Below are positions 47,687 to 58,217 of a DNA stretch of 64,000 nt, piece after piece. The notes beneath the pieces were generated by a model that saw nothing but the letters and a program-made list of their open reading frames with translations, was not told where the DNA came from and did not search any database. Location: NCBI RefSeq assembly GCF_900142415.1, contig NZ_FRAU01000002.1, forward strand, positions 310,001 to 374,000, in the 5' to 3' direction. Each line of letters starts with the position of its first letter. Within the stretch, counting starts at the first letter, position 1. This DNA is from Rhodothermus profundi. GTDB taxonomy: Bacteria > Bacteroidota > Rhodothermia > Rhodothermales > Rhodothermaceae. The translations under genes and the position numbers were made by a program.

Positions 47687-47892
47687 TTTTTGTGAAGAAG
47701 TGTGGAAGAATTGCATTTCTTTTTTTTTGAAGACAATTGTGTCGAAATTCCTTTCCTTTAATAAGGAAGCGCATCCATATCCAAAAAAATAATCATGAAT
47801 GCTGGTAATTTGTTAATAAGTTTAGATGGAAAGCGCTACCAGTCCTGTATGGAAAGGATTGTCTGCAGGCAGGCTGCGCTATGAGCAACCCG
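47687..47892. other. AT-rich intergenic region after trkH
   Basis: The first 130 bp are unusually AT-rich, with a run of nine T near 47722-47730 and a small hairpin TTCCTT-TAAT-AAGGAA near 47750. No strong GC stem precedes the T-run, so a classical terminator for trkH is not certain. The promoter of the ilv operon follows. Confidence 0.4.
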
Positions 47893-47921
47893 TTGACAGC
47901 AGGCCATTTTGCATGTTAATT
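47893..47921 (+). promoter_or_regulatory. Candidate promoter of the ilv-leu operon
   Basis: A perfect -35 hexamer TTGACA (47893-47898), a 17-nt spacer and TTAATT (47916-47921, 3 of 6 matches to TATAAT) preceded by TG. Transcription would start near 47928, about 120 nt before the leader ATG. Confidence 0.45.
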
Positions 47922-48045
47922 ACGCGGCACAACGACGAACGCCACGCTAGTCATGCGATACGGACGTCACCAGGAGCTGATAGGTAAGGCAAGCGGTCGA
48001 AAGGCCGCCCTGGTGGCGTTGTGGACCCATCCCTTCTCGCAAGGG

Positions 48046-48153
48046 ATGACCGCGCGTGTGCAGCAGACACTTGAAGGGAGCAGCCTTCGACTTCGGAGGC
48101 TACCGCTGCTCCTTCTTGGTCTGCTTGTACTCCTTATTAGCCTTATTGGCTAA
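48046..48153 (+). CDS. Putative ilv leader peptide (attenuator)
   Basis: A 35-codon frame from ATG 48046, immediately preceded by AAGGG. The frame is open back to an ATG at 47953, but the short form fits leader peptides better. The last 22 codons (48085-48150) read LRLRRLPLLLLGLLVLLISL then IG: 12 Leu, 2 Ile and 1 Val. The stop lies 92 nt before the ilvB GTG/ATG. This is the pattern of a leader peptide whose translation senses charged branched-chain tRNAs. It is inferred from sequence; the same composition could also be read as a membrane helix, which I think less likely given the position and downstream pairings. Confidence 0.7.
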   Translation: MTARVQQTLEGSSLRLRRLPLLLLGLLVLLISLIG

Positions 48154-48245
48154 AACGCACGGCGGTCAATCCCTTGGCATTTCACAGGCATGACGGTTCC
48201 AGAAGAGCTTGAGGCCGGGGGATTGACCCCGGAAGCCCGACCGTG
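48154..48245 (+). promoter_or_regulatory. ilv leader RNA with alternative pairings
   Basis: GGTCAATCCC (48164-48173) can pair perfectly with GGGATTGACC (48219-48228). The same downstream bases also form a local hairpin, CCGGGG (48215-48220) with CCCCGG (48227-48232), so the two structures exclude each other. A ribosome stalled on the leader frame just upstream would cover or free the first strand. No T-run follows the hairpin, so control could be translational or Rho-dependent. Confidence 0.6.
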
Positions 48246-50087
48246 ATGAACACCAGAGATGCCGTATTTGACCGTCAAGCCTGTGAGGTAGCTATGCGTA
48301 CCGACACGATCCCGTTGGTCCGTTCTGCCCGTCCTGCATTGAGCCTCGACGAGGCATCGGTGAACGCACCTGCTGAACCGATAACTGGTGCCGAAATCTT
48401 TGTGCGTGCTCTGGAAGCGGAGGGCGTCGAGGTGGTTTTTGGCCATCCAGGCGGTGCAGTCATTCACATTTACGATGAGATGGCCCGTTTGAAGCCCCGC
48501 TTTCAGCATGTGCTCGTGCGGCATGAGCAAGGGGGCACGCATATGGCCGAAGGCTATGCCAAGGCCACGGGGCGTGTAGGTACAGTGCTGGTCACCAGCG
48601 GGCCCGGTGCCACCAATACCGTCACCGGTATTGCCGATGCTTACATGGACTCGGTGCCTATCGTAGTCTTTACGGGCCAGGTACCGACCAAACTGATCGG
48701 CAACGACGCGTTTCAGGAAACCGACACAATCGGCATTACGCGCTCCATTACCAAGCACAGCTTCCTGGTGCGCGACGTGCGCGACCTGGCCTGGACGATT
48801 AAGGCAGCCTACCATATCGCGCGTACGGGACGTCCGGGACCCGTCGTCGTTGACCTGCCCAAGGATGTACTGCTGGCCCGGGCGCCGTTTGTCTATCCAG
48901 AAGAGGTGCACCTGCGAGGCTACCGGCTACCGGGTCCGCCTGATCCAGAACGCATTCGAACAGCAGCGGAAATGATCGCGGCGTCACGTCGCCCGCTGCT
49001 CTACGTGGGAGGCGGCACAATCAATGCCAACGCCGCTGAGTTGCTGACGCAGTTGGCCCGTAAAACGCGCATCCCGGTTACAACAACGCTGCACGGCCTG
49101 GGGGCTTTCCCTGAGGACGACCCGCTGTCGCTGGGCATGCTGGGCATGCACGGTACCTGGTATGCCAACCAGGCGGTGCAGCATGCCGACCTGATCATTG
49201 CTGTGGGGGCCCGGTTCGATGACCGCGTGACCGGACGCGTCGATTCCTGGGCCCCTTATGCCAAGGTGATTCACATCGACATTGATCCGTCGTGCATCTC
49301 GAAGAACGTCCCGGTTGACTGCGCCATTGTGGGAGATGTGCGCGAGGTGCTGGCGCAACTACTCCCGCTGGTAGAGCCCAAAGACACAAAGGAATGGCTG
49401 GCCAAGATTGAGTACTGGCGTGCCGAATGCCCCCTGACCTATGAGCAGGGAGACGGTAAGCTGCGGGCGCAGTACGTCATCGAGCGCATCCGAGCAAAAA
49501 CTGGAGGCCACGCTGTTGTGGTCTCGGACGTAGGGCAACACCAGATGTGGACGGCCCAGTACTTCCGCTTTTTGCATCCCCGCACGCACATCACCTCAGG
49601 CGGACTGGGAACCATGGGCTTTGCGCTGCCAGCCGCCATCGGAGCAGCTATGGGACTGCGCGGGCGTTCCGACTGGCCGGTTGTCTGCATCAGTGGCGAC
49701 GGAGGATTCGTGATGAACGCGCAGGAGCTGGGGGTGGCGGCTGCGCACCGCCTGCCCATTAAGGTGGCCGTCATCAACAACAACTTCCTGGGAATGGTCC
49801 GGCAGTGGCAGGAGCTGTTCCACGAAAACCGGTTCAGCCACACGGACCTGTCCGATACCAACCCGGACTTCGTAAAACTGGCCGAATCCTTCCACTGCGT
49901 GGGCCTGCGGGCCACTCGTCCCGAAGAAGTCGATGCCGTCCTGGAGGAAGCCTGGAAAGTGACCGACCGACCCGTGGTGATCGACTTCCAGGTGGTGAAG
50001 GAAGAACTGGTCTTTCCCATGGTACCGGCCGGGGCTTCCACCAGCGAGATGATTACCCAGCGTCTCACCCCCAACGCTTTCGTCTGA
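48246..50087 (+). CDS. ilvB: Acetolactate synthase large subunit
   Basis: A ThDP/FAD enzyme joining pyruvate to pyruvate or 2-oxobutyrate for valine/leucine and isoleucine. It has 613 aa from ATG 48246 (GTG at 48243 also possible). ATG 48294, with GAGGT upstream, is an alternative that removes a non-conserved leader of 16 residues. Conserved blocks are EVVFGHPGGAVIHIYDE (catalytic Glu nearby), GPGATNTVTGIADAYMDS, FQETDTIGITRSITKHS and the ThDP motif GDGGFVMNAQEL with INNN. It is the first structural gene of the ilv-leu operon; ilvH follows after 7 nt. Confidence 0.95.
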   Translation: MNTRDAVFDRQACEVAMRTDTIPLVRSARPALSLDEASVNAPAEPITGAEIFVRALEAEGVEVVFGHPGGAVIHIYDEMARLKPRFQHVLVRHEQGGTHMAEGYAKATGRVGTVLVTSGPGATNTVTGIADAYMDSVPIVVFTGQVPTKLIGNDAFQETDTIGITRSITKHSFLVRDVRDLAWTIKAAYHIARTGRPGPVVVDLPKDVLLARAPFVYPEEVHLRGYRLPGPPDPERIRTAAEMIAASRRPLLYVGGGTINANAAELLTQLARKTRIPVTTTLHGLGAFPEDDPLSLGMLGMHGTWYANQAVQHADLIIAVGARFDDRVTGRVDSWAPYAKVIHIDIDPSCISKNVPVDCAIVGDVREVLAQLLPLVEPKDTKEWLAKIEYWRAECPLTYEQGDGKLRAQYVIERIRAKTGGHAVVVSDVGQHQMWTAQYFRFLHPRTHITSGGLGTMGFALPAAIGAAMGLRGRSDWPVVCISGDGGFVMNAQELGVAAAHRLPIKVAVINNNFLGMVRQWQELFHENRFSHTDLSDTNPDFVKLAESFHCVGLRATRPEEVDAVLEEAWKVTDRPVVIDFQVVKEELVFPMVPAGASTSEMITQRLTPNAFV

Positions 50088-50094
50088 GCCTGCC

Positions 50095-50715
50095 ATGCAA
50101 GCCGAAATGCCAATGCTGACGCCGCAGCAAATTCTGCGCAAGCGCAAAGCCGGGGAGCCGCTGCTGCCAGGCGAACCCGAACAGGTGCACCGCCACACCA
50201 TTGCCGTCCTGCTTGAAAACACGATCGGAGCGCTCATTCGGGTCGTCAACCTGTTCTCTGCCCGCGGCTTTAACCTGGAGAGCGTAACCGTCGGCGAAAC
50301 AGACGACCCGACGGTCTCGCGTATGACCATCGTTACAACGGGCAACGACCGGATTATTGGACAGGTCCTGCGTCAGCTCGATCGTCTGATTGACACGCTA
50401 CATGTAGAAGACCTGAGCGGCAGTTCGTTTGTCGAGCGTGAGCTGTGCCTGCTCAAGGTGCGCTACACAAACGAAACCCGGGCGGCGATCATGGACACGG
50501 CCGAAATCTTCCGCGGCAAGGTCGTGGACATTACGCCCGACACGATGACCTTTGAACTGACCGGTCCCACGTCGAAAATCGAAGCCTTTATCAAGCTAAT
50601 GCGGCCCCACGGTATCCTGGAGGTGGCCCGAAGTGGTCGCGTGGCCATGCGGCGCTCTTCTGGAAGCTGGCTCACGCATGAAGATCCTGCGCTGAATCTG
50701 TCTGCCGAACGCTAA
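50095..50715 (+). CDS. ilvH: Acetolactate synthase small (regulatory) subunit
   Basis: A 206-aa regulatory partner of IlvB. An ACT domain at about 30-105 (HTIAVLLENTIGALIRVVNLFSARGFNLESVTVG) binds the feedback inhibitor valine in the family. A C-terminal domain (about 115-195) has the KVVDITPDTMTFELTG and LMRPHGILEVARSGRVAM segments. The N-terminal ~28 residues are a non-conserved extension; a second Met at residue 4 or 7 could also start it. Confidence 0.95.
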   Translation: MQAEMPMLTPQQILRKRKAGEPLLPGEPEQVHRHTIAVLLENTIGALIRVVNLFSARGFNLESVTVGETDDPTVSRMTIVTTGNDRIIGQVLRQLDRLIDTLHVEDLSGSSFVERELCLLKVRYTNETRAAIMDTAEIFRGKVVDITPDTMTFELTGPTSKIEAFIKLMRPHGILEVARSGRVAMRRSSGSWLTHEDPALNLSAER

Positions 50716-51744
<1,029 letters not shown>

Positions 51745-51756
51745 TGGGAGACAACG

Positions 51757-52848
51757 ATGACAGCCCTACCATCTTACCATATCGTTGTGCTGCCCGGCGA
51801 CGGCATCGGACCCGAGGTAACGCGCGAAGCGGTGCGCGTGCTGGAAGCTGCTGCTGAGTCTTTTGGTTTTCGGCTGACCACCGCATCGTATCCGGTAGGG
51901 GGAGCAGCGCTGGAAGCGGAGGATGACCCACTGCCCGAACCGACGCTGCGTGCCTGTCTTCAGGCTGACGCTGTGCTGCTAGGAGCTGTTGGGGGGCCTC
52001 GGTGGGATCATCTGGAGCGTTCGCAGCGGCCTGAAGCTGGATTGCTGCGGCTGCGCAAGGCGCTTGAGGCCTACGCCAATCTGCGCCCCGTGCAGGTGCC
52101 TGAAGCGCTGGCGGATGCTTCGCCCCTGAAGCGAGAGGTGGTGGCTGGGACCGATCTGCTCATCGTGCGAGAATTGACCGGCGGCATCTACTTCGGCGAG
52201 CCGCGCGGGCGAGACCAACAACGCGCCTGGAATACAATGCACTACGCGCGCGACGAGATCGCGCGCATCGCCCGCGTCGCCTTTACATGGGCAAAGCGTC
52301 GGAAGGGCCGCGTGGCTTCCGTGGATAAGGCCAACGTGCTCGAAGTGTCCCAGCTCTGGCGCGAGGTGGTCACGCAGGTGCATCGAGAGGAATTCCCAGA
52401 GGTGGAACTGGAGCATTTCTATGTGGACAACGCTGCCATGCAGCTTGTGCGCGATCCGCGCCGGTTCGACGTGGTGGTCACCGGCAATCTGTTTGGAGAC
52501 ATTCTCTCAGACCTGGCGGCTACCTTGCCCGGCTCGCTGGGCATGTTGCCGTCGGCCAGTATCGGGGGACGGGTCGGCCTGTTTGAGCCGGTGCATGGGA
52601 GCGCACCGGACATAGCCGGTCAGGGAAAAGCAAACCCGCTGGCAGCGATCCTGTCGGCTGCTATGTTGCTGGAAACGCTGGGGCAAGAAGCAGCAGCACA
52701 GGCGGTTCGCCAGGGAGTGCGTGCTGCCCTGGCCGAAGGCGTCAAGACAGCCGACCTGTGCCGGGCAGGCGAAACGCCTGCTCCAACAGAAGTCGTTGGG
52801 CAGTTCATTGCAAACTACGTGCGACAGCAAACGCCGGTAACGCCATAA
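51757..52848 (+). CDS. leuB: 3-isopropylmalate dehydrogenase
   Basis: NAD-dependent oxidative decarboxylation of 3-isopropylmalate in leucine synthesis. A 363-aa protein with [18 protein letters not shown], substrate-binding [56 protein letters not shown] and [17 protein letters not shown]. It follows ilvC by 12 nt. The next gene comes only after a 187-nt structured gap. Confidence 0.96.
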
Positions 52849-52862
52849 ACCGTAAAGGACGT

Positions 52863-52979
52863 ATGGACGAGGCGGTTGTAGCCGTACCAGATGGCAGGCA
52901 GGGACAACGACTTAGCAGGCGCCCGGCCTCGGAAAAAAGCCGGTAGCTGGTCGCCGCAGGTTACCGGCCGGCCGGGCGC
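52863..52979 (+). promoter_or_regulatory. Structured leuB-leuA intergenic element with a small frame
   Basis: Nested inverted repeats: an outer 10-bp stem GCGCCCGGCC (52919-52928) with GGCCGGGCGC (52970-52979), and an inner 7-bp stem GCCGGTA (52939-52945) with TACCGGC (52962-52968). A 27-codon frame (52863-52946) with AAAGGA upstream ends inside the structure. It begins MDEAVVAVPDG, with three Val but little Leu. This may be an internal processing, pausing or attenuation element; there is no T-run. Confidence 0.5.
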
Positions 52980-53035
52980 GCTACACAACAAAGCGGCCTT
53001 ACCAGAACCCTCTGTCCCTAACCCTGCCAGTAGCC

Positions 53036-54649
53036 ATGAACGACCGCGTCATTATCTTCGATACCACGCTGCGTGATGGAGAGCAAGCGCCGGGCGCTTC
53101 CATGTCGCTGGATGAAAAGCTGCGCATCGCACGCCAACTGGCCCGGCTGAATGTTGACGTCATTGAGGCAGGCTTTCCGATCTCCTCGCCTGCTCAGTTT
53201 GAGGCAGTTCAGCGCATTGCCGCCGAGGTAGAAGGACCGATCATCTGTGCGCTAGCACGAGCGCGCGAAGAGGACATCCGCACAGCAGCCGAAGCGCTCA
53301 AGCCCGGCAAGCGCACGCGCATTCATACGTTTATCGCGACCAGCGACATTCACATCGATGCCAAGTTTGGCGATGTTCGTTACGGACGCACGCTGGCCGA
53401 AAAGCGCCAGACCATTCTGCGCCTGACCGACGAGGCGGTGCGTCTGGCGCGCACCTTCACCGACGACGTGGAGTTCAGTGCGGAAGATGCCGGGCGCACC
53501 GATATAGGCTACCTGGCCGAGGTCGTACAGGTAGCTATTGAAGCCGGGGCTACGACCATTAACCTCCCGGACACCACGGGCTATTGCGTGCCCGATGAAT
53601 ACGCCGCCATGTTCCGGGCCGTTATTGAACGGGTGCAGCCTCCCCCCTACGTTGTCTTCTCGGCTCATTGCCATGATGACCTCGGGCTGGCGGTGGCCAA
53701 TTCGCTGGCGGCTGTGCAGGCCGGTGTGCGGCAGATTGAATGCACCATCAATGGCATTGGGGAGCGCGCTGGCAACGCTGCGCTTGAGGAGGTGGTTATG
53801 GCGCTCAAGGTCCGTGGCCAGCGGTTCGGGCATCTGGCGGTTCATATAGTGACGCCCTACCTGATGGAAACCAGTCGCATGGTGGCCCTGGCCACCGGAT
53901 TCCCTGTACCTCCAAACAAGGCTATCGTGGGACGCAATGCATTCAGCCACGAAGCTGGCATTCACCAGCACGGCGTCCTGCGGCGGCGCGACACCTACGA
54001 AATCATGCGGGCCGAAGAGGTCGGGCAGCAGCCTGAGCAGATCCGACTGGGACGCCACTCGGGACGACATGGACTCTTCAGTCGGCTGGCCCGGTTGGGC
54101 ATTGAAGTGCCTGAAGAACGCAAAGAAGAAATCTATCAACGCTTCCTGGCACTGGCCGACCTGAAAAAGGAAGTCTATGACGAGGACCTGCGCCGGCTGG
54201 TTGAAGCAAAACCAACCGCTGATCCCGAAAACCCCTACCAGCTTATGGAAATGCATGTGGCTACCGGTACGCACCGGGCACCGGAAGCCGAAGTGCAGAT
54301 TTTCAACCGAACAACCAATACGCTTCGCATTGAGCGGGCAACCGGCGATGGGCCTGTCAACGCAATCTATAAGGCCATTGACCGGGCAGTAGGGGCTGCT
54401 CATGAACTGGTCAGCTATGAACTGCGCTCTGTTACCGAAGGAGCCGATGCGGTGGGCGAAGTGTCGGTGGTGATTGATTACAACGGTTCCCGCTTCAAAG
54501 GAACGGCGCGCCACACCGATGTGCTGCGCGCTTCGGCCGATGCCTACCTGGAAGCTATCAACCAACTGGAGCAGTTTCGCGCTGATCGAGAAAGTGTTTC
54601 GTTCGTACGGGCAGGCATTATGCAATCCTTTGGCGGAGCAGCCGCCTGA
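53036..54649 (+). CDS. leuA: 2-isopropylmalate synthase
   Basis: Condenses acetyl-CoA with 2-oxoisovalerate, the committed leucine step. At 537 aa it has the HMGL-like TIM barrel (about 1-280: [46 protein letters not shown], with metal-binding His) and the linker ([12 protein letters not shown]). A C-terminal LeuA dimer/regulatory domain (about 395-530) is where leucine feedback acts in the family. It has its own structured leader upstream but no separate promoter that I can define. Confidence 0.96.
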
Positions 54650-54671
54650 ACCATAATCCGCAGGAACGGCT

Positions 54672-55970
54672 ATGGGCATGACCATCACCGAGAAAATCCT
54701 GGCGCGTCATGCCGGGCGCGACCGCGTAACGCCTGGTGAAAACATCTGGATTGATGTTGACATCCTGATGACGCACGACGTGTGCGGGCCGCCAACTATC
54801 GAGATTTTCAAACGAGAGTTTGGACCGGACGCGCGCGTGTGGGACCGGGAGAAAGTGGTCATTCTGCCCGACCACTACATTTTTACGGCCGATCCGCACG
54901 CGCGGCGCAATATTGAAATCCTGCGCGCCTTCGCACAGGAACAGGACTTGCCGTACTACTATGACGTGGGCACCGCCCGCTACAAAGGTGTCTGTCACGT
55001 AGCCCTGGCTGAGGAAGGGTTCAATCGGCCAGGCATTGTGCTTATTGGAACAGACAGCCACACCTGCACGTCGGGCGCTTTTGGACTCTTCTCGACGGGG
55101 GTGGGCAATACAGACGCCGCCTTCATTATGGGCACCGGCAAGATCTGGGTCAAGGTGCCTGAAACCATGCGCTTCATTTTCGAGGGGAGTCTGCCGCCCT
55201 ACCTGATGGCCAAGGATCTCATTCTGACGATCATTGGAGACATCGGAATTGATGGGGCAACCTATCGCGCGATGGAATTCGACGGGGAGGCCGTCTATGA
55301 CCTGTCCATTGAGGAGCGCATGACGCTCACTAACATGGCTATTGAGGCCGGCGGCAAAAGCGGCATCATCGCACCCGACGAGAAAACTATCGCGTACGTG
55401 CGCGCGCGAACCGACGCGCCCTTTGAGGTATACCACAGCGATCCCGATGCCCGCTACCACTCTGAGTATGTCTATGATGTCTCTCGGCTGGAGCCTGTGG
55501 TAGCCAAGCCGCATCGGCCCGACAATCGAGCGACCGTCACCGAAGTCGCAGGTACTAGACTCGACCGCGCCTACATTGGAAGCTGCACCGGCGGTAAGCT
55601 GGAAGACTTTATTGCCGCCGCCCGTATTCTGAAAGGACAGGAGGTGCAGATCGATACCTACGTCGTGCCTGCCTCCACCTACGTTGCCCACCAGTTGCAT
55701 CATTACAAGATTGATGGCGTCTCGCTCTACGACATCTTTGTCAATGCGGGGTGCAAAATCGGCCACGCGAGCTGCGGCGCCTGCCTGGGAGGACCGCCCG
55801 ATACGTTCGGACGCACGCATGGCACTGAGGTGGTCATCTCGACGACTAACCGCAACTTCCCGGGACGCATGGGCTCCAAGCAGGCGGCGATCTACCTGGC
55901 TTCACCGCTAACGGTGGCTGCTTCGGCCCTGACCGGCGTCATCACCGACCCGCGCGAGGTGCTGGTGTAG
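54672..55970 (+). CDS. leuC: 3-isopropylmalate dehydratase large subunit (LeuC2/HacA type)
   Basis: A [4Fe-4S] aconitase-family subunit converting 2- to 3-isopropylmalate with LeuD. The 432 aa and sequence style are of the archaeal/thermophile LeuC2-HacA branch rather than the ~466-aa enterobacterial form. Cluster ligands are C305 (SCTGGK), C368 and C371 (CGACLGG). GTDSHTCTSGAFGLFSTGVG is the substrate loop. Homoaconitase or citraconate/2-methylmalate use is possible in this branch; with cimA in the operon, a double role in the citramalate route is plausible. Confidence 0.92.
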   Translation: MGMTITEKILARHAGRDRVTPGENIWIDVDILMTHDVCGPPTIEIFKREFGPDARVWDREKVVILPDHYIFTADPHARRNIEILRAFAQEQDLPYYYDVGTARYKGVCHVALAEEGFNRPGIVLIGTDSHTCTSGAFGLFSTGVGNTDAAFIMGTGKIWVKVPETMRFIFEGSLPPYLMAKDLILTIIGDIGIDGATYRAMEFDGEAVYDLSIEERMTLTNMAIEAGGKSGIIAPDEKTIAYVRARTDAPFEVYHSDPDARYHSEYVYDVSRLEPVVAKPHRPDNRATVTEVAGTRLDRAYIGSCTGGKLEDFIAAARILKGQEVQIDTYVVPASTYVAHQLHHYKIDGVSLYDIFVNAGCKIGHASCGACLGGPPDTFGRTHGTEVVISTTNRNFPGRMGSKQAAIYLASPLTVAASALTGVITDPREVLV

Positions 55971-56031
55971 GACAACAGGGCAAGGATGATTTCAAGCTGC
56001 TGCTATCCCCGATTCCCAACCGACTAAGGCA

Positions 56032-56613
56032 ATGAAAGATGTGATCCGTGGGCTGGCCTACGTGGTCGGCGATTCGATTGATACGGACCAGATCATCCCG
56101 GCCCAGCATCTGGTCTATAGCCTCACGCGTCCGGAAGAACGTCGGCTCTACGGCCGCTATGCACTCAGTGGCGTGCCGGCCGAAGGCCAGGGGCTGCCCT
56201 ATGGTGGCATTCCCTTTACCGAGCCGGACGCCTACAGAAGTCGCTTTAAGATAGTTGTAGCGGGTAAAAACTTTGGCTGCGGCTCTTCGCGCGAACATGC
56301 TCCGTTTGCGCTGCGCGAGGCGGGTTGTGAAGCGGTGATTGCCGAAAGCTATGCCCGCATTTTCTACCGGAATGCTATCGACGGAGGCTTTCTGGTGCCG
56401 TTTGAAACGCCCGTGCGTCTGATTGACAAAATCCGAACGGGCGACGAGCTGGAGATCGACACGCGCCTGGCTCGTCTGCTCAATCGAACAACGGGCGAAG
56501 AATTCCTGCTGCATCCACTGGGCGAAGTAGCCGAAATTCTGCGTGCTGGCAACCTGTTCGAATATGCCCGTAAGGCCGGTCTAATCCCCACAACCCCTTC
56601 AGAATCGCCATGA
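56032..56613 (+). CDS. leuD: 3-isopropylmalate dehydratase small subunit (LeuD2 type)
   Basis: A 193-aa swivel-domain partner of LeuC. GDSIDTDQIIPAQHLVYSL is the family opening, and GKNFGCGSSREHAPFALREAG is the conserved substrate-binding segment. YARIFYRNAIDGGFL follows. Its end overlaps the cimA start by 4 nt (ATGA), so the two are translationally coupled. Confidence 0.94.
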   Translation: MKDVIRGLAYVVGDSIDTDQIIPAQHLVYSLTRPEERRLYGRYALSGVPAEGQGLPYGGIPFTEPDAYRSRFKIVVAGKNFGCGSSREHAPFALREAGCEAVIAESYARIFYRNAIDGGFLVPFETPVRLIDKIRTGDELEIDTRLARLLNRTTGEEFLLHPLGEVAEILRAGNLFEYARKAGLIPTTPSESP

Positions 56614-58217
56614 AGATTGAACTTTTTGACACGACGCTGCGCGATGGTACCCAGGGGGAGCACGTTACGCTGACCGCTGATGACAAAATTCGCATCGCCC
56701 GCCAACTGGACGACTTTGGCATTGATGTGATTGAAGGGGGATGGCCGGGGTCGAATCCCAAAGACCGGGCATTTTTTGAGCGTGCCCGGGACATTGAGTG
56801 GAAGCATGCCCAGATCTGCGCGTTCGGGTCCACGCGCCGAGCCGGCCTGGCACCGGAAGACGATCCGAACCTGCAGGCGCTGCTGGAGGCGCAGACGCCG
56901 GTGGTGGCCATTTTTGGAAAAAGCTGGACGCTGCATGCCCGCGTTGCCCTGGGCGTCTCGCTGGAAGAGAATCTGGAATTAATTGCCTCCTCGGTAGCTT
57001 TTCTGAAAGCCCACGGTCGTCGCGTTATCTACGACGCCGAGCATTTCTTTGACGGCTATCAGGACGATCCTGCCTATGCGCTGGAGACGCTTCGGGCGGC
57101 TGCTGAGGCAGGGGCCGATGTACTGGTGCTCTGCGACACGAACGGCGGCACGCTGCCCAGTGATATTTACCGGATCGTAGGAGAGGTGCGGCGGCAGTTT
57201 AACGTGCCGCTGGGGATTCATACGCACAACGATACCGGTTGTGCGGTTGCTAACACAATCATGGCCGTAGCGGCGGGTGCTCAGCACGTGCAGGGGACCA
57301 TCAACGGGATCGGTGAGCGCTGCGGCAATGCCGATCTGTGTGCCATCATCCCAAACCTGCAGCTCAAGATGGGCTTTACGTGCGTGCCCGAAGAAAAACT
57401 GGCTCGGCTGACCGATCTGTCGCGCTTTGTCAACGAAGTGGCCAATCTGGCACCCATCGACCGGGCCCCGTACGTAGGCCGCAGTGCTTTTGCGCACAAA
57501 GGAGGGGTGCATGTCTCGGCCGTTATGAAGGATCCCCGCGCCTACGAACATATCCCTCCCGAGAAGGTGGGCAACCGCCGACGGGTGCTGGTCTCAGACC
57601 TTTCCGGCAAAAGCAACATCCAGTACAAAGCCGCCGAGCTGGGCATTGAGCTGAAGGAGAGCGAGCAGGCCCGGCAGGCCGTGCAGCGCATCAAGGAGCT
57701 GGAGCATCTGGGCTACGAATTCCAGGGAGCAGAAGCCTCCTTTGAGCTCTTGTTGCGCACGATCCAGGGGGAAGACACGCGCTTTTTCTCGCTGGAACGA
57801 CTGCGCGTGCGCACCGAAATCGACGAAGAGGGCGGCGTGTGCACCTCAGAAGCGACATTGGTCCTGCGCGTGCAGCATGAACGCGAGCTGGTCGTAGCCG
57901 AGGGCAATGGACCGGTCGATGCGCTCTCAAATGCGCTGCGTAAGGCGCTGCGCCGCTTCTACCCCGACCTGGATCAGGTGCATCTGAGCGACTACAAAGT
58001 GCGCGTGCTGAACTCCGAAGGAGGGACCGCTGCGGCCGTCCGGGTACTGGTGGAGCACCGAGACAGCGAGCGCCGCTGGCACACCGTAGGGGTATCGACG
58101 AACATTCTGGAAGCTAGCTGGCAGGCTCTGGCCGATGGGATTCGGTATTACCTGTTGAAAAGGCGGTCGCAGGCAGCTACCAGCGCAACGCTTGCATCGC
58201 TGCCTCAGCGCATGTAG
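56610..58217 (+). CDS. cimA: Citramalate synthase
   Basis: Condenses acetyl-CoA and pyruvate to (R)-citramalate, feeding 2-oxobutyrate and isoleucine without threonine deaminase. At 535 aa it is a LeuA paralogue with [16 protein letters not shown] and the IEGGWPGSNPKD hallmark of CimA. HTHNDTGCAVANTIMAV and FAHKGGVHVSAVMKDP are present, with a C-terminal regulatory domain (about 395-520) that in the family senses isoleucine. It is the last gene of the operon. Its 3' end overlaps the converging protease gene by 13 bp. Confidence 0.95.
   Translation: MKIELFDTTLRDGTQGEHVTLTADDKIRIARQLDDFGIDVIEGGWPGSNPKDRAFFERARDIEWKHAQICAFGSTRRAGLAPEDDPNLQALLEAQTPVVAIFGKSWTLHARVALGVSLEENLELIASSVAFLKAHGRRVIYDAEHFFDGYQDDPAYALETLRAAAEAGADVLVLCDTNGGTLPSDIYRIVGEVRRQFNVPLGIHTHNDTGCAVANTIMAVAAGAQHVQGTINGIGERCGNADLCAIIPNLQLKMGFTCVPEEKLARLTDLSRFVNEVANLAPIDRAPYVGRSAFAHKGGVHVSAVMKDPRAYEHIPPEKVGNRRRVLVSDLSGKSNIQYKAAELGIELKESEQARQAVQRIKELEHLGYEFQGAEASFELLLRTIQGEDTRFFSLERLRVRTEIDEEGGVCTSEATLVLRVQHERELVVAEGNGPVDALSNALRKALRRFYPDLDQVHLSDYKVRVLNSEGGTAAAVRVLVEHRDSERRWHTVGVSTNILEASWQALADGIRYYLLKRRSQAATSATLASLPQRM

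Follow-up and report, generated by a model that had tools for sequence, protein, structure and literature searches.

The locus raises the question of how the ilv-leu-cimA operon of Rhodothermus profundi is controlled from the unannotated region in front of its first gene. The window, that is the whole stretch of DNA analysed, comprises 64,000 nucleotides, and all the features described here lie on its forward strand. The genes, assigned with NCBIfam, follow the order ilvB-ilvN-ilvC-leuB-leuA-leuC-leuD-cimA. The regulated gene ilvB, coding for the acetolactate synthase large subunit (48294..50087; TIGR00118, 779 bits), is followed by the remainder of the operon at 50095..58217, which consists of ilvN (50095-50715), ilvC (50731-51744), leuB (51757-52848), leuA (53036-54649), a leuC-type gene (54672-55970), a leuD-type gene (56032-56613) and cimA (56610-58217). 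Judged by the conserved GAGGT..ATG, ilvB starts at ATG 48294 and not at GTG 48243. In one genus member (L008 of G001) the open frame of ilvB carries one in-frame TAA, which could point to a pseudogene or a sequencing error, or could lie on the leader side of the frame.

Sequence comparison and modelled folding give us high confidence that the region in front of ilvB would be a leader-peptide attenuator. With somewhat less assurance, the element in the window is probably a ribosome-mediated attenuator acting on the translation of ilvB.

The leader frame and its codons

A TTGACA-type promoter had been claimed at 47893. The hexamer is present and conserved in the genus, and TTAATT follows 17 nt on, giving a promoter-like block (TTGACA-17-TTAATT, 47893..47921) that is conserved in the genus alignment. 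A scan for the sigma-70 consensus gave no call, so only TTGACA can be taken as a good match. About 50 nt upstream of it another block, AAGCGCTACC..TCCTGT (47825-47850), is conserved in the genus alignment and is a possible regulator site.

The preliminary description had placed a 35-codon frame starting with ATG at 48046-48153 and had counted 12 Leu, 2 Ile and 1 Val among its last 22 codons (48085..48150). Direct reading found the frame at that position and computation returned the same counts; the frame is unannotated in the genome. Because the frame continues upstream without a stop as far as a conserved ATG at 47953 (47953..48153), a leader of 66 codons instead of 35 is possible. Seven genomes of the genus share the region and were compared by alignment. 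In all seven the frame is open with a conserved ATG 47953, extends over 61-66 codons and stops at TAA, TGA or TAG. The second in-frame ATG (48046) is likewise conserved, and the leader start codon is therefore left at either. The last codons and the stop are overlaid by a small putative hairpin, TTAGCC/GGCTAA (48137..48153), which is seen in several relatives.

The tail of this frame is exceptional in its surroundings. Nowhere else on either strand of the 64 kb is a stop preceded by 12 or more Leu/Ile/Val among 16 codons, and when the intergenic region (47687-48293) was shuffled 5000 times with dinucleotides preserved, not even 11 was reached. The leader is in this respect what is expected of an attenuator, a short ORF enriched in codons for the products of the pathway. 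Codon choice is skewed too, CTT making up 7 of the 12 Leu codons as against 11% in the genes of the window, and CTG 2 of the 12 as against 59%. For Rhodothermota leaders overall, CTT accounts for 86 of 182 Leu codons and ATT for 84 of 94 Ile codons. Changes within the genus fall on codon positions 1, 2 and 3 of the tail in the proportion 26/6/17, which corresponds to an interchange of Leu, Ile and Val. The N-terminal part of the leader shows 79/65/80, with no codon-position bias.

A hydrophobic tail after a more polar N-terminal part would also suit a functional membrane peptide, accompanied by helices that serve as an mRNA stability or processing element. This is hardly credible in view of an N-terminal part free of codon-position bias and a tail in which Leu, Ile and Val swap freely and codon use is skewed. 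Moreover, the tail stands at a fixed short distance from the first paired strand (A, below), before genes for branched-chain amino acids.

Competing helices and the start of ilvB

It had been claimed that two strands downstream of the frame can pair. They are A (segment 2, GGTCAATCCC, 48164..48173) and C (segment 3, GGGATTGACC, 48219..48228), and they are perfectly complementary. A is present in 56 distinct elements, over which 95.5% of the A:C cells are paired, a value biased by the finding of sites with a model that rewards pairing. Compensatory cells number 25 as against 4.8 in shuffles, none of 2000 shuffles being as high, in statistics that ignore the relatedness of the elements. The compensatory changes anticipated for this helix occur at 9 of its 10 pairs, and the informative types are T-A to C-G, G-C to A-T or C-G, C-G to T-A and A-T to T-A. 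The local CCGGGG/CCCCGG hairpin of the preliminary description was also found (48215..48232, CCGGGG-GATTGA-CCCCGG). In this C hairpin, the 3:4 helix, the GG-GATTGA-CC core is constant in many members, and the flanks appear to covary across clades.

Further upstream, and absent from the preliminary description, GGGATGACCGC (48043..48053) would be the classical '1' strand, pairing with A with one bulged A. Segment 1 is identical in all seven genus members, and in none of them does any other upstream sequence pair better with A (p<=0.01 against shuffles). It is an unusually good partner (p<=0.05) in 19 of 29 Rhodothermota and 15 of 29 Ignavibacteria elements; it is weak in family f14, and in Ignavibacteria it lies within Gly-Ile codons of the leader. 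A local hairpin with conserved arms and a variable loop, CATCCC/GGGATG (48028..48048), competes for it. The competing helices 1:2, 2:3 and 3:4 that characterize an attenuator have accordingly been kept by evolution, as judged from shuffles for 1:2, covariation for 2:3 and covarying flanks for 3:4.

The unusual constancy of A and C across distant groups might be read as the mark of a ligand-binding riboswitch or T-box, beside which the hydrophobic frame would be incidental. We regard this as very unlikely. The constancy is accounted for by the pairing of A with segment 1 and with C, since a strand that must fit two partners can be expected to stay near-constant. Nearly all elements have the Leu/Ile/Val frame beside them, with shifting length and changing stop codon. 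Rfam searches of the window and its relatives, at gathering and lax thresholds, gave no relevant family, riboswitch and T-box included, and no leader-family match.

In the genus alignment segment 1, A, B, C and D stand out as near-identical islands, between which the sequence of the seven genomes is variable and contains indels. D (GCCTGTGAGGTAGCTA, 48279..48294), an island following a variable spacer, comprises the ilvB Shine-Dalgarno sequence (GAGGT) and the initial base of the start codon. A strong partner of this region, likewise absent from the preliminary description, is the anti-start strand B (TGGCATTTCACAGGC, 48175..48189), located downstream of the leader stop. In 7/7 genus members B:D has 15 bp (about -27 kcal/mol) and covers the Shine-Dalgarno sequence and the first start-codon base. 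Only 0-8 of 1000 loop shuffles were as good in each of the seven genomes; when compared with the short start region alone, p is only 0.03-0.38 in Rhodothermus. Three observed base changes retain the pair as G-U, and in G005 two of the 15 pairs are lost.

Two other pairings were considered and rejected for the window. The C hairpin itself lies 62 nt from the ilvB start, too far to sequester it. Folding from 48080 onward, without segment 1, offered A with UUGACCGUC (48267-48275), which is specific to the window and was dropped because it is not kept in G001.

The absence of a T-run had been pointed out earlier, along with the suggestion of a non-classical form, either translational or Rho-dependent. 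The terminator scan of the window was indeed empty, with no T-run and no intrinsic terminator, so that the classical signature of transcription attenuation, a 3:4 hairpin with a U-run, is missing there. Of the two forms suggested, the translational one is supported by the conservation of the helix that covers the ilvB Shine-Dalgarno sequence.

Folding agrees with a two-state switch. In nascent RNA extending from A to beyond C and cut before D, the probability of A:C is about 1 at 37 and at 65 C, the latter being near the growth temperature of Rhodothermus. When A is masked, the C hairpin forms and B:D is about 1. For full-length RNA of the seven genomes at 65 C the values are at least 0.98 for 1:2, 0.82-0.96 for the C hairpin and at least 0.99 for B:D; with segment 1 unavailable, A:C is at least 0.99. 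The ribosome binding site is thus sequestered in the OFF fold and freed in the ON fold, as in a translational attenuator, in computations by a program that does not score pseudoknots; a pseudoknot of A:C with B:D would keep the ilvB start closed. In some genomes, when both strands are free, folding allows 1:2 to form around a ribosome positioned at A-40. With a spacing of 9-14 nt, a ribosome that sits on the stop codon covers no more than the first 0-3 nt of A. Termination therefore masks A only marginally, and the OFF state relies on 1:2.

In the proposed mechanism the leader peptide would sense charged Leu, Ile and Val tRNAs for the operon. By default, or when the leader is translated to its end, segment 1 would pair with A, C would close its local CCGGGG/CCCCGG hairpin, and B would pair with D, hiding the ilvB Shine-Dalgarno sequence and the A of the AUG. 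A ribosome stalled in the Leu/Ile/Val codons would keep segment 1 from A. A could then pair with C before D is transcribed, and with B held in the A-C loop the ilvB start would be free. Very probably, on this model, slow leader translation on shortage of Leu, Ile or Val refolds the mRNA so that the first enzyme gene is exposed at its start. We infer ribosome stalling, polarity and, as the readout, translation rather than Rho-dependent termination.

Recurrence and output in other groups

A covariance model built on A:C was run on whole genomes regardless of genes. It usually gave one match per genome (E=7e-15 for that of the window) and matched 33 of 114 genomes of the order and 33 of 394 of the wider group, the two sets overlapping. 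Among the genomes of the other loci 12 of 39 were matched, none of them gammaproteobacterial or acidobacterial, although such genomes are among the 39. From a scan of ilvB relatives together with the model, the arrangement recurs in other families of Rhodothermales, in Ignavibacteria and in Calditrichota, group names for part of the loci being taken from contig titles. Nearly all sites directly precede ilvB or ilvD; at L155 the leader arrangement stands before leuB instead. At almost all sites there is a frame that ends 9-14 nt short of A and whose final 16 residues include 8-14 Leu/Ile/Val; as the model covers about nine leader codons, this content is independent of the model in part, though not entirely. 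Homologous regions that retain the paired strands also retain the frame and its Leu/Ile/Val codons, as had been anticipated for relatives.

Some loci deserve separate mention. The genome G474 has two copies of the element (L164 and L169), both before ilvD-like starts; gltB had been considered as the target at L164 and was rejected, the site actually lying before an ilvD start. At L134 (1580-2109) a stop closes the ilvD frame about 60 codons in, and a SAM riboswitch (Rfam RF00162, 81 bits) lies behind it, so that either a truncated gene or an assembly join is seen there. In family f15 (L009, L011-L013, L035, L037) the element is absent before ilvB, where another conserved stretch, GGGACATCTTGC...GTATCAT...TAGG, is found; judged by its sequence, this family would have a different control of ilvB.

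The output seems to differ between the three groups. T-runs (at least 5 T within 50 nt after C) occur in 18 of 30 Ignavibacteria elements as against 1 of 30 in Rhodothermota, and part of this contrast may come from base composition alone. Not all of the Ignavibacteria cases resemble good terminators, only some do, and in some a composite hairpin ends close before the T-run. A TCTGAAG motif of Ignavibacteria was considered as sequestering the ilvD Shine-Dalgarno sequence; it fits better as an outer stem before the T-run.

In other Rhodothermota families an ATG 11-24 nt after C is the start of ilvB or ilvD, or of a second small ORF. This ORF begins about 11-21 nt after C, has about 43-70 codons and stops either right at the start of ilvB or slightly upstream of it (L119-L122, L126, L129, L130, L133, L137, L138, L140, L141). 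In several cases it overlaps that start (ATGCCTGA, TGATG), an arrangement which suggests translational coupling. The A-C loop pairs with the start region more often than expected in these families (family-combined p=1e-6), as compared with p=0.086 in the control of Ignavibacteria and Calditrichota together, at loci that were selected partly for A:C pairing, being model-found sites.

The same leader-peptide sensor could instead be read out by termination without a U-run, for example a Rho-dependent one that acts, in the absence of A:C, on the C-rich sequence following the C hairpin. In Rhodothermota the first 50 nt past C are in fact C-rich and G-poor (36% C, 20% G), and the T-runs and composite hairpins of Ignavibacteria follow the same core. 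We consider this readout unlikely, however, since the window has no intrinsic terminator, a T-run is found in just one Rhodothermota element, and it leaves unexplained both why B:D is conserved across the ribosome binding site and why the start codon stands so close behind C in the other families. Rhodothermota, Ignavibacteria and Calditrichota may share one inherited sensor core (segments 1, A and C) whose output has been swapped. Many Ignavibacteria would use U-run termination, and Rhodothermota a sequestration of the start codon or Shine-Dalgarno sequence by an anti-start strand in the A-C loop, acting in some families on the second small ORF overlapping or just before ilvB. For this whole scheme we see the chances as evenly balanced.

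Known attenuators and significance

The element resembles the enterobacterial attenuators (leuL, ilvL, ivbL, trpL) in the pathway-product codons of its leader ORF, in the competing helices 1:2, 2:3 and 3:4 and in its position upstream of a branched-chain amino acid operon. It differs from them in having no U-run terminator in the window, the output being probably the ilvB start, in a stop codon 9-14 nt before segment 2, and in its sequences, with no Rfam leader match. With the translational attenuators of ermC and cat it would share the freeing of a sequestered ribosome binding site by a stalled leader ribosome; there the inducer is a drug and not an amino acid shortage.

Leader-peptide attenuation is mainly known from Proteobacteria, Actinobacteria and Firmicutes. 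Candidate attenuators in Bacteroidetes/Chlorobi are reportedly mentioned by Vitreschak and co-workers in a survey of 2004. According to a 2010 survey, none had been known outside Proteobacteria and Actinobacteria before that survey added Firmicutes (PMC2965389). In the actinobacterial LEU element before leuA, Leu codons pair with the Shine-Dalgarno sequence in a pseudoknot (PMC1262725). A Leu-rich leader frame and a helix over the Shine-Dalgarno sequence of the first gene are common to both, whereas in the present element that sequence would be covered by B, a strand of its own downstream of the leader stop, and the A:C switch differs. Since B:D reaches at least 0.99 in the full-length folds at 65 C, a pairing of the Leu codons with the Shine-Dalgarno sequence would not be favoured in the window. 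Upstream ORFs rich in branched-chain amino acid codons, with attenuation proposed, precede ilvB in the ilvB-II (Corynebacterium), ilvB-OMG and Leptospira ilvB motifs, ilvB-II being presented as transcription attenuation (PMC10272879). The ilvB-OMG motif (41 members in several phyla; PMC10272879), likened to the element by description alone, may overlap with it.

For these genomes the analysis corrects the start of ilvB and adds a missing small gene. In the three groups sharing the sensor core this type of control is little described. If true, a core kept across Rhodothermota, Ignavibacteria and Calditrichota, and conserved down to its sequence, would extend leader-peptide attenuation to deep branches, and would provide a natural series in which the output of an RNA switch moves from transcription to translation while its input is kept.
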